From a virus: a stretch of DNA of 30,520 bases. Position 1 is the first letter of the stretch. Every line of letters starts with the position of its first letter. Below the pieces are notes generated by a model. The model was not told the origin of the DNA, did not search any database, and worked only from the letters and a program-made list of their open reading frames with translations. The DNA lies in IMG/VR virus record IMGVR_UViG_3300042307_000633, positions 1-30,520 of that record; one strand, written 5' to 3'. The position numbers were made by a program, and so were the translations under genes. Below, one piece after another: positions 16,437-22,613 of this stretch.

Positions 16437-17435
16437 ATGGGTAAAGAAGAAAAATACAATATAATCCGAGATCATTTTTTCAAATGCCATTATAATCTAA
16501 AGAATTTTCACGAGCAGCATTACCAAGATTATGGATATAAAAATCCTAAAATGTTGAAAGATGCAATGGTAATGCAAGGCATTACATTAAAAGCAAAAAA
16601 TGAATTTATACAAAAGCAAAGCACCAAGCAAACAGCTGAATTTAAAGATTACAATTTAGATAGTTTAGACTATTTTGGTATAGCTGAATCAATAGGTAAG
16701 GATCATTTACCGTTCTATTTGCCAAATCAATTTAAAAAGGTTGGAATTTTATCAGATATTCATGTGCCATTCCACCATCGTGAATCATTGGCCTGTGCAA
16801 TTAGCTATTTAAAGAAACAAGAAATTGATTGCCTGTATCTTAATGGGGACATTTTTGATACATATAGCCTATCATCCTTTATTAAAGACCCCGATCTTAG
16901 GGATTTCCCAAGGGAAGTGGATATGTGCAGAGAATTCATGCAAAGAATGAGAGATATTTTTAAGCACATTCCAATCTATTTTAAATTAGGAAATCATGAG
17001 AACCGGTATGCCAGAATCCTACAAAATCAAGCAGAGGAATTCGCACAAATCCATGATCTACAATTTGAGATATTTTTCCATCTGGAGAGGTTAGGATTTA
17101 TCATGGTGCAAGATTGGCAAGGTTGTTACATGGGGGATCTGTTAGTACTACATGGCCATGAATTATATGGATCCGGTGGCGCTAATCCTGCGCAAAATTT
17201 AATGAACAAGGTAATGTGCAATGCTTTAATGGGGCATGTGCATAAAACAAGTTTTGCCATGAAGAAAACAGGATTTAAAGAATCAATTAAAACATACACC
17301 ACCGGATGTTTGACATATACATCACCTAAATATATGGTAATGGCCCAACATAATCAAGGTTTTGCCATTGTAGATATTGAAAATGGCAAAAGCAATGTGC
17401 ATAACATGATCATTAAAGATGGAAAAGTTTTGTAA
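16437..17435 (+). CDS. Calcineurin-like metallophosphoesterase
   Basis: A 332-aa protein with all metal-binding motifs of the calcineurin-like phosphoesterase fold in order: D-x-H (Asp107, His109 in ILSDIHVPFHH), GD-x2-D (Asp138, Asp141 in LNGDIFDTY), GNHE (185-188), HGH (239-241) and GHVH (266-269). The first 100 residues are an extra, helical N-terminal part. The catalytic residues are intact, so it should be an active phosphodiesterase or phosphatase on nucleic acid, nucleotide or protein; the substrate is not evident. It is a single gene with its own promoter boxes, terminators before and after, and no co-transcribed neighbour, like an accessory gene. DNA repair, recombination or counter-defence roles are all possible. 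Confidence 0.9.
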   Translation: MGKEEKYNIIRDHFFKCHYNLKNFHEQHYQDYGYKNPKMLKDAMVMQGITLKAKNEFIQKQSTKQTAEFKDYNLDSLDYFGIAESIGKDHLPFYLPNQFKKVGILSDIHVPFHHRESLACAISYLKKQEIDCLYLNGDIFDTYSLSSFIKDPDLRDFPREVDMCREFMQRMRDIFKHIPIYFKLGNHENRYARILQNQAEEFAQIHDLQFEIFFHLERLGFIMVQDWQGCYMGDLLVLHGHELYGSGGANPAQNLMNKVMCNALMGHVHKTSFAMKKTGFKESIKTYTTGCLTYTSPKYMVMAQHNQGFAIVDIENGKSNVHNMIIKDGKVL

Positions 17436-17475
17436 ATTTAAATGTTAAGTATGGTTTGAGGGTAAAAAGCAAAAG

Positions 17476-17500
17476 AGCATCTAATTTTAGGTGCTTTTTT
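17476..17500 (+). terminator. Terminator after phosphoesterase
   Basis: A 7-bp stem, AGCATCT (17476-17482) with AGGTGCT (17489-17495), one G-U pair, 6-nt loop, followed by TTTTTCTT. Flanking A and T runs extend the stem. Seven nt on lies a -7-like box. Confidence 0.82.
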
Positions 17501-17502
17501 CT

Positions 17503-17522
17503 TATATTTAGGGAGTACTCCC
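17503..17522 (+). promoter_or_regulatory. Promoter-like box abutting a 12-bp palindrome
   Basis: TATATTTA (17503-17510) matches the -7 consensus except for its last base. It abuts the perfect palindrome GGGAGTACTCCC (17511-17522), exactly where transcription would start. An operator that blocks initiation is a reasonable inference; no binding protein is identified. Confidence 0.5.
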
Positions 17523-17539: not shown

Positions 17540-17576
17540 AATAGGTAAAAAATAGGTTACCTATTAAAAACCTATT
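17540..17576. repeat. Symmetric four-copy AATAGGT array (operator or origin candidate)
   Basis: AATAGGT occurs at 17540-17546 and 17551-17557, and its reverse complement ACCTATT at 17559-17565 and 17570-17576. Both arms have an 11-bp period with AAAA between the copies, and the whole is centred on T17558. An 11-bp period puts each pair on the same face of the helix. It lies between the last late-type gene and the early genes, with a strongly AT-rich stretch (17577-17640) next to it, so either a repressor operator or a replication origin with iterons is possible. Confidence 0.75.
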
Positions 17577-17640
17577 GGATAATTATGATATTATTTTTTA
17601 AAAAAGTTTTAAAATGTTTTGGAAATATTAAATAAGGGTG

Positions 17641-17648
17641 TACATTTA
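17641..17648 (+). promoter_or_regulatory. -7-like box before early genes
   Basis: TACATTTA differs from TAnnTTTG in the last base only. It lies 4 nt before one in-frame ATG (17653) and 31 nt before the preferred one (17680). Confidence 0.4.
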
Positions 17649-17679: not shown

Positions 17680-17892
17680 ATGACAAATTCAATTAAAGTA
17701 GGCGATTTTATTAGAGGTTCATACAAATATGGATGTATTTGTGGAGTTGTTTCAGAAGTAAAAAAATCAATTGTTGTAATTAAAAAATGCAAAATGCATT
17801 ATAATGTTTACACATTGACAGATACATTATGTAATGTAACTAAAAGTAGAATACACATAATAGGGTTAAATCAAGAAGAATCAATAGTTTAA
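17680..17892 (+). CDS. Uncharacterised small early protein
   Basis: A 70-aa protein if started at ATG 17680; ATG 17653 is in frame and would add nine residues, and would be near-leaderless from the box at 17641. I prefer 17680 because MTNSIKVGDFIRG has the usual form and an A-rich leader. The sequence looks all-beta (VGDFIRG, GVVSEVKKSIVVIKK, YNVYTLTDTL, RIHIIGL), like a small SH3 or OB-type barrel, with four Cys. First gene of the early region, alone between the control region and a terminator, which suggests strong early expression. Function unknown. Confidence 0.65.
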   Translation: MTNSIKVGDFIRGSYKYGCICGVVSEVKKSIVVIKKCKMHYNVYTLTDTLCNVTKSRIHIIGLNQEESIV

Positions 17893-18075: not shown

Positions 18076-18269
18076 AAAATGAAGAATCGTTTATTTTAAA
18101 AATGAAATTTCGTGATGATGCCGGATATTATACGGTGATCAGGGAGTTTTACACCTTTAATGAGGCGCAATCCTTTTTAGATAAAGAATGGCGCATATTT
18201 AGGGGCCGGTTAATACAGATCATGGATATACCGGATCCAATCCAATCTAATCAAATCAATCATGCGTAA
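18072..18269 (+). CDS. Uncharacterised small early protein
   Basis: A 65-aa protein. Its beta-rich N-terminal half (ILKMKFRDDAGYYTVIREFYTF) runs into a helix (NEAQSFLDKEWR) and then a strand, an arrangement seen in small alpha/beta phage proteins. No family recognised. It overlaps the preceding 42-aa gene by 4 nt and the next gene by 8 nt, so it is part of a coupled early operon leading to the recombinase. Confidence 0.7.
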   Translation: MKNEESFILKMKFRDDAGYYTVIREFYTFNEAQSFLDKEWRIFRGRLIQIMDIPDPIQSNQINHA

Positions 18270-18456
18270 AGTAAAGCAGTACGAAATACATCAAATGGTG
18301 GCAGAGAATCTAAATAAAATGGGATATCTGCCACATAGTGCAAGGGAGTTTAAACCCCATAACATCCAGAGTATTATTAGCCGAAAGGTAAATGATCCTG
18401 TGATCAATTCAGAAATAGAAAAAGTTATTAACATCCTAAACCAAACCAATAAGTAA
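18262..18456 (+). CDS. Small possible helix-turn-helix protein
   Basis: A 64-aa basic protein. The stretch NIQSIISRKVNDPVINSEIEKVINIL (residues about 35-60, split here by my reading into a recognition-like helix, a turn with NDP and a final helix) resembles the end of Xre/Cro-type domains, and the N-terminal YEIHQMVAENLNKMG could be the first helices. A DNA-binding role would make it a candidate for the operator at 17540. This is inference from pattern only. It overlaps the preceding gene by 8 nt and is followed after 1 nt by the ERF gene. Confidence 0.65.
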   Translation: MRKVKQYEIHQMVAENLNKMGYLPHSAREFKPHNIQSIISRKVNDPVINSEIEKVINILNQTNK

Positions 18457-20875: not shown

Positions 20876-20970
20876 TTTAGCGATCTCACAACATAGCTAT
20901 AAACGGTCTTAAAGGCCATCATTATTGAACCCAAGGTGAGATCTGGGGGATTTAATTGATGGTCTTTTTT
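20876..20970 (+). ncRNA. Structured leader RNA: attenuator or pseudoknot before replication gene
   Basis: Between the -7 box at 20863 and the ATG at 20974 are two interleaved long-range helices: GATCTCAC (20882-20889) with GTGAGATC (20936-20943), perfect, and GGCCATCA (20914-20921) with TGATGGTC (20957-20964), one G-U pair, followed by six T (20965-20970). The order left1-left2-right1-right2 means they form a pseudoknot together or compete as alternatives. The second looks like a terminator, ending 3 nt before the start codon. A small local hairpin GGTCT/AGGCC (20905-20917) also competes with left2. It may be a transcription attenuator or a free small RNA of about 95 nt. Start is estimated. 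Confidence 0.65.
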
Positions 20971-20973
20971 ATT

Positions 20974-21711
20974 ATGAAGAAAATAAGAATTAAAAACAGA
21001 TATGGAACGGTTCCAAATGCGCTATTAAACAGCGATCAAATATCGTTTAAAGCCAAGGGCATCTATGCTTACATACAATCAAAACCGGATGATTGGGATT
21101 TTTCTGTGGAACGAATTTCAAGCCAAGTAAAAGAAGGAAAACCAAGCATTGCAGCTGCACTAAAAGAGTTAGAAAATGCAGGTTATTTGACACGAATCCG
21201 GTACCAAGCAGATTTTGGATATTGGGTTACAGACTATGTACTGCATGAATTTCCTATAAAGGAATCCCTACATACAGGAATTCCTATGCAGGAAAATCCT
21301 ATAGCAGGAAAACCATCAAATAATAGTAATAAAGATTTAAGTAATAAAGAGTATATACATAATAATATAAGTAAGAAAGATAAGGACATTGGACAAATTT
21401 TGTCTAATAGAGATCTGATTTTTCAAAAATGGTTCGACTATAAAAAAGAGAAAAAACAATCTTATAAACCTATTGGAAAACAGGCATTAATTAAAACATG
21501 GGAATCGGCCACAGATGATCAATTAGAAAAAGCCATTGATCATTCAATATCCAATAATTGGAATGGAATTTTTGCTAAAAAAGAAGAAATTAATAATATT
21601 ACAAAAGGCAAGCATCAAACCAATTTAGAAAACATAGAATTAGCACGACAACAAATCCAAAAACTACATGAAAACGGAACTTATAAAAATCCATTCGCAA
21701 TCGGCGATTAA
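20974..21711 (+). CDS. Helix-turn-helix replication protein
   Basis: A 245-aa protein of the type annotated as helix-turn-helix or replisome-organiser protein in Bacteroidetes phages. Residues about 1-95 form a winged-helix: RYGTVPNALLNSDQISFKAKG, YIQSKPDDWDFSVERI, KPSIAAALKELENAGYLTRI. A polar, Asn/Ser/Lys-rich linker follows (about 105-145), then a DnaD-like C-terminal segment with FQKWFDYKKEKK and AIDHSISNNWNGIFA. I choose ATG 20974; the in-frame TTG 20956 and ATG 20959 lie inside the terminator arm of the leader. It likely binds the origin and recruits the host helicase machinery. The next gene overlaps by 44 nt. Confidence 0.82.
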   Translation: MKKIRIKNRYGTVPNALLNSDQISFKAKGIYAYIQSKPDDWDFSVERISSQVKEGKPSIAAALKELENAGYLTRIRYQADFGYWVTDYVLHEFPIKESLHTGIPMQENPIAGKPSNNSNKDLSNKEYIHNNISKKDKDIGQILSNRDLIFQKWFDYKKEKKQSYKPIGKQALIKTWESATDDQLEKAIDHSISNNWNGIFAKKEEINNITKGKHQTNLENIELARQQIQKLHENGTYKNPFAIGD

Positions 21712-22405
21712 CATCAGCAATCTGCAAAACAAAATAGTACAAGCACAGGCATCTACAAAATTGATGCTAATGCTACCAAGTGAAAAAACAGATTTAGCCA
21801 CACAGATCTGGGCCATTGCAAAAATGAAATTATCATTAAGATCAGAAAATCAAAATGAGGACATGGCGCAAATAGTTATTTTAACTGATGATCTGGAATT
21901 GTTTGGAAATCTAACAAAAGATGAAATTATGATCGGTTTAAAAATGGGGTTAAACGGTGAATTTTTAAATAAAGATCAGCAGGTATTTTTTAATTCATCC
22001 AATTTTGTGCAATGGATCCGGAAATACATAGAACGCAAACAGGTTGAATTGGCAGAACTTGCAAAGTTGCCAAAAATGGAAACTATTAAACCGGTACCAT
22101 CAGATCAAGAATTAAAAATAATGGCCATAAATAATGCCAATGATCATGCAGATCTGATGGTTAAAATGGGCAAAGATTTTAAATGGATTGCCGGTGGGTT
22201 GTATCAGCTTTATGATGATTTGGTAAAATTTGGTCTTTATGAATGTCCAGAATCGGATAAAAATCGTATCAAATCAAAAAATTATATATCATCTTTAAGT
22301 GAAGTGGAACTTGATGCGACATATAAAAGCGCATATTATAAAGAATTTATCCAATCCATGGTTAATATGGATGTCAGATTTGATCAAAATGGTCAATTAT
22401 TTTAA
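21668..22405 (+). CDS. Uncharacterised replication-region protein
   Basis: A 245-aa helical protein overlapping the HTH gene by 44 nt. The N-terminal 35 residues may not all be used, since ATG 21764 is in frame; the long overlap makes the true start uncertain. Conserved-looking parts are LATQIWAIAKMKLSLRS, TKDEIMIGLKMGLNGEFL and FNSSNFVQWIRKYIERK. No Walker A motif, so not an AAA+ loader. Coupling to the HTH protein suggests a helicase-loading or replication partner, by inference only. Confidence 0.72.
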   Translation: MKTELIKIHSQSAINISNLQNKIVQAQASTKLMLMLPSEKTDLATQIWAIAKMKLSLRSENQNEDMAQIVILTDDLELFGNLTKDEIMIGLKMGLNGEFLNKDQQVFFNSSNFVQWIRKYIERKQVELAELAKLPKMETIKPVPSDQELKIMAINNANDHADLMVKMGKDFKWIAGGLYQLYDDLVKFGLYECPESDKNRIKSKNYISSLSEVELDATYKSAYYKEFIQSMVNMDVRFDQNGQLF

Positions 22406-22421
22406 ACTAAAACCCTAATCA

Positions 22422-22613
22422 ATGAAAAAAGTTATCAGCATTATTGCCATTACAGGCATTATTTATTTTTTATATCCTAAAAATGAACCTGTTAAAGCAG
22501 TAAATTTCAAACCAAATAGAGATTTTGGGATCATTACGCATGAGGATATTTACATCGATAATATGGAAAAAGGTAAATACACAAAACATGGTAGGTTAAT
22601 TACTAAAGATTAA
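22422..22613 (+). CDS. 63-aa membrane-anchored or secreted protein
   Basis: MKK followed by a hydrophobic segment (about 4-18, VISIIAITGIIYFLY), then a polar C-terminal 44 residues with Lys and Asp. Reads as an N-terminally anchored protein with a periplasmic domain, or a signal peptide. The start context CTAATCA-ATGA is shared with gene 24030. Function unknown. Confidence 0.65.
   Translation: MKKVISIIAITGIIYFLYPKNEPVKAVNFKPNRDFGIITHEDIYIDNMEKGKYTKHGRLITKD

Follow-up and report, generated by a model that had tools for sequence, protein, structure and literature searches.

An optional, operator-like AATAGGT array ahead of the presumed early promoter in a tailed phage and its relatives

What is the role of a compact cluster of AATAGGT motifs that stands between the end of one phage operon and the start of the next? 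The window analyzed here spans the 30,520 bases of an IMG/VR virus record; it is of the tailed-phage type with phage gene order and encodes an ERF annealing protein as well as an O/DnaD-like initiator. Its positions 17540-17576 read exactly AATAGGT-N4-AATAGGT-N1-ACCTATT-N4-ACCTATT (Table 1). An earlier note had described four copies of the 7-mer, two per strand, repeating every 11 bp within each arm around a single central base, and had judged this too regular for chance. The description is exact, with the central base at 17558. Furthermore, a comparable four-copy array appeared in 0/300 dinucleotide-preserving shuffles and the array recurs in other viral contigs, which together rule out a chance origin; when any 7-mer was admitted (X-Nd-X-Nc-rcX-Nd-rcX), the array was the sole match in the window. 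The symmetry of the arms is incomplete: both 4-nt spacers are A-rich on one strand (AAAA/AAAA), which gives the array a polarity that is kept in array-bearing relatives. The neighboring "64-nt nearly G+C-free tract" was overstated, since the poorest 64 nt contain 8 G/C and the poorest 40 nt, which form the spacer of Table 1, contain three.

Table 1 Features in and around the array slot of the window.
Feature	Position	Strand	Basis or remark
Metallophosphoesterase gene, last before the slot	16437..17435	+	PHROG 221, E 8e-37
Intrinsic terminator hairpin ending the upstream (late) operon	17471..17500	+	RNA fold -13 kcal/mol, z -4.9
GGGAGTACTCCC palindrome (some relatives GGGGGTACTCCC)	17511..17522	.	
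AATAGGT copy 1 (outer)	17540..17546	+	seen in sequence
AATAGGT copy 2 (inner)	17551..17557	+	seen in sequence
AATAGGT copy 3 (inner)	17559..17565	-	seen in sequence
AATAGGT copy 4 (outer; most variable copy among relatives, first two bases)	17570..17576	-	
AT-rich spacer, array to promoter	17579..17618	.	3 G/C in 40 nt
Bacteroidota-type promoter TTTG-N19-TACATTTA, presumed early promoter	17618..17648	+	consensus match
First early gene, 70 aa, without family	17680..17892	+	
64-aa three-helix protein (reader candidate of the earlier note)	18262..18456	+	kept with or without array
Replication-initiator-like protein, HTH_36 domain (reader candidate of the earlier note)	20974..21711	+	

The array occupies a slot between the terminator and the presumed early promoter, which was called by consensus only (-33 TTTG / -7 TAnnTTTG). 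As this promoter fits the Bacteroidota type, the host probably belongs to that phylum. That the array separates the phosphoesterase from the early genes is true in the window, and in the carriers the array lies in the terminator-to-early-promoter slot. The genes around the slot differ among relatives: the upstream position is taken by one of two unlike phosphoesterases, the metallophosphoesterase or a gene of PHROG 704 (exonuclease type), and the first early position holds different genes from phage to phage. Among carriers the downstream edge of the array lies 55-89 bp from the -7 box, and the array-to-promoter distance clusters weakly by helical phase (p ~0.014 for 11 alleles, which are partly non-independent, with -7 boxes chosen by pattern and no box obtained for L139-L141). 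The slot harbors further elements. A GACCGTTAAATAAATAATT stretch is found in the slot of many relatives (L076-L137 slots), array present or not, and follows the array in L003, L007 and L013. HNH homing-endonuclease-like genes, identified by eye, are located in the slot after the phosphoesterase gene in L077-L080, L108, L113, L115, L123, L144, L147, L148, L150 and L165. In one carrier (a single contig covering the start of L234 and the end of L060) tandem TATACAAGTT repeats with a 10-bp period stand just upstream of the terminator.

The exact pattern (28 specified bases) was found in 13 viral contigs. Relaxed patterns brought the number of array carriers to ~23, adding L014, L016, L017, L018, L019, L020, L025 and L028 and, via a three-copy pattern, a degenerate array in L037/L038. 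All other three-copy viral matches look like chance and carry no phage-family genes except for one ERF match in L015; the leftover relaxed matches lie in unlike context, and their number is close to the chance expectation that we estimate for 16 fixed bases, given the size of the collection. Neither the four-copy nor the three-copy pattern matched anything in 84,980 prokaryote species genomes, which rules out a cellular operator in these genome contigs. Searches of plasmid and phage collections returned weak partial matches only (best E 1 or worse), and a literature search for such sites in Bacteroidota phages returned none. The array is real and so far phage-restricted. It is present in both orientations relative to the genes, and between clades the arrays show 89-100% identity where the 37-bp flanks upstream of them show ~20%.

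In order to count presence and absence, relatives were gathered by the phosphoesterase, not by the array, a slot being counted if 230 nt or more of it could be read. The array was present in 5 of 71 such slots and in 5 of the 16 slots of relatives gathered by the second phosphoesterase. The phosphoesterase-fetched slots matched either nearly all of the 28 bases (26-28) or no more than background (18 or fewer), the one exception being L061, which holds an apparently decayed copy. Alignments revealed clean array-free alleles in three clades, with the terminator before and the promoter after unchanged. Such array-free close relatives have phosphoesterases 86-97% identical to those of carriers, and one pair is identical: L062 (array absent) and L063 (array present) have identical proteins. 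To explain the distribution of the array, a tree of 73 proteins requires a minimum of 8 gains or losses; well-supported branches enforce 7 of these, and the count does not separate gain from loss. One clade consists of carriers throughout (9/9), but the array itself was what led to its members, so this clade provides no evidence of fixation. Absence likewise cannot show in the L003/L019 clade, which was retrieved by pattern. Conservation in close relatives, the check named in the earlier note, is therefore mixed, the array being exact in some and absent in others. Evidently, this switch-like site before the early promoter is real yet dispensable.

Among the alleles the TAGGT cores are intact, apart from one exception in L037/L038; since core changes would escape a search by pattern, this invariance is partly a matter of ascertainment. 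Most changes affect copy 4 at its first two bases and the spacers (first spacer base); others affect the array centre and, rarely, copy 3 at its first two bases, and the spacers stay A-rich on one strand. In all changed pair cells (10/10) a hairpin pair is lost, without a compensatory change in any. Pair breaking without compensation, together with the occurrence in both orientations, points to a DNA site for protein binding and not to an RNA.

Side elements accompany some of the arrays. The GGGAGTACTCCC palindrome is joined to the array by ..CCCTAAAA in 5 phages and in L008 lies in the opposite orientation relative to the genes; GGGAGTACTCCC..CCCTAAA adjoins the A-spacer arm in window-like phages and in L008, where it is flipped along with the array. 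The GGGAGTACTCCC/GGGGGTACTCCC palindrome with downstream CCCTAAA was seen in six phages, all of the window's phage family (including the window, L008 at 11500 and the L061 slot), and in L061 a GGGAGTACTCCC-type palindrome stands beside the apparently decayed array. L006 and L014 have GTACAA repeats at the array side instead. GTACAAGAAAACGTACAA was considered as a second mobile operator and was uninformative, because matches beyond L006 and L014 mostly appear to be coding; its bases spell VQENVQ in one frame.

Several other explanations have to be weighed. A hairpin with a 4x4 internal loop, acting in a leader or a small RNA, would fit the folding of the array at z -2.1 and -3.6 on its two strands and a weak likeness to the 3' hairpin of Rfam Bacteroidales-2 (E 0.055, far below the gathering score); no Rfam family at the array exceeded its gathering score, the best reaching 17.1 bits vs 204.3. 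The uncompensated changes and the two orientations speak against an RNA element, as does the position 3' of the terminator and 5' of the promoter, and we consider it highly improbable. A recombination or mobility site (att-like, or a miniature mobile cassette travelling together with its side element from phage to phage) would account for the patchy distribution, for both orientations and for the linked side elements, which differ between phages and of which one is flipped with the array in L008; the homing-endonuclease-like genes also land in the slot. A mobile element would be expected in copies at several places, whereas the carriers' contigs hold one full array each with no second one elsewhere. 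Moreover, no target duplication or terminal repeat was visible by eye in the alignments and no recombinase tracks the array, which leaves this explanation unlikely.

The earlier note had proposed that the array is read by the small protein at 18262 as an operator, or by the initiator at 20974 as a replication origin. The 18262 protein, a predicted three-helix protein (pLDDT 88), is present in 12/12 carriers with enough sequence, and one homologue weakly resembles a Recombinase domain (E 0.0025, below the cut-off). However, it is equally present in non-carriers (49/50), its central region varies among carriers while the array does not, and a fold search gave no PDB match; an operator read by this protein is disfavored and, in our estimate, rather improbable. 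The initiator fares no better as a reader. Its family is found in 12/12 carriers and in 46 of 50 non-carriers, and carriers with an unchanged array have three or more unlike types of its N-terminal DNA-binding domain; the near relatives L016 and L028, closely similar in their slots, differ sharply in this domain. Comparison of the initiator (window 20956-21711) with L016, L019 and L014 shows N-terminal domains swapped between close relatives and C-terminal parts common to some. An iteron-type origin, at which the initiator would bind the four copies and open the adjoining AT-rich tract, draws on the encoded O/DnaD-like initiator and on the likeness to plasmid and lambdoid phage origins, namely short helically spaced repeats beside AT-rich DNA; the array differs from these in having two copies inverted, in being dispensable and in its independence of the initiator's DNA-binding domain. 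Iterons should be kept wherever their initiator is kept and should follow its DNA-binding domain, yet the array is cleanly missing from relatives that have this slot and share up to 97% identity in the neighboring gene, and the AT-rich spacer occurs in array-free phages too. Short repeats around the initiator gene (20900-22500) were inspected as well and formed no iteron array. The array is thus probably not an obligatory origin; a role as replication origin in the carriers is unlikely, and we give an initiator-bound iteron cluster a low probability. Genes tracking the array were sought in the 5.5 kb downstream (12 carriers, 50 non-carriers) and, for 17 carriers and 15 non-carriers, across their contigs, whole or partial. 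None was found in either set; the best-associated genes are confined to some carriers and are best explained by phylogeny.

With moderate confidence we favor an optional operator-type cis DNA site with a putative multimeric reader, a host or core phage protein, that adjusts early transcription. By its anatomy the array appears to work like an operator: the half-sites are symmetric, repeated and helically spaced, and they lie at a promoter. Recurrence, conserved cores and the site before the early promoter support the operator idea of the earlier note indirectly, while both readers it named are disfavored. Against an operator count the missing linked regulator, given that no gene tracks the array, and the close relatives that live without the array. 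The four TAGGT-core half-sites form two direct pairs facing each other, to which a dimer-of-dimers or a cooperative DNA-binding protein may bind, and the bound array would adjust early transcription from its place upstream of the -7 box. The array-promoter distance varies by 34 bp, which makes a fixed-contact activator or a steric repressor unlikely. The array would be an optional cassette, repeatedly gained or lost and present in either orientation, and its reader would not stem from any gene whose presence follows that of the array; we infer a host protein or a multi-purpose core phage protein.

Known operators resemble the array in part. In DtxR/IdeR operators, TAGG-core facing half-sites are bound by two dimers in an overlapping 19-bp layout; the array shares the TAGG-core facing half-sites and differs in its 37 bp and its 11-bp period. 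Lambda-type operators of dimeric phage repressors are likewise dyad-symmetric multi-copy sites beside an early promoter, whereas the array lies off the promoter, is absent in near relatives and has no linked repressor gene that we could find. Mycobacteriophage stoperators are numerous, genome-wide and asymmetric and act with a phage repressor (PMC9283540); the likeness consists in short repeated phage-specific sites, for the array putative binding sites, and the difference in one compact array per genome.

More tentatively, and with considerable doubt, the phages may gain and lose the operator cassette as a unit, in either orientation, with an outside protein, from the host or a co-resident element, reading it. 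If so, phages of one family would differ in early-gene control by an outside regulator, and if the reader is host-encoded, they would exchange a regulatory input in cassette form and leave their genes unexchanged. Phages that are nearly identical but differ in having or lacking one 37-bp site at the early promoter constitute a natural experiment, and the array itself is a ready bait for finding the binding protein.
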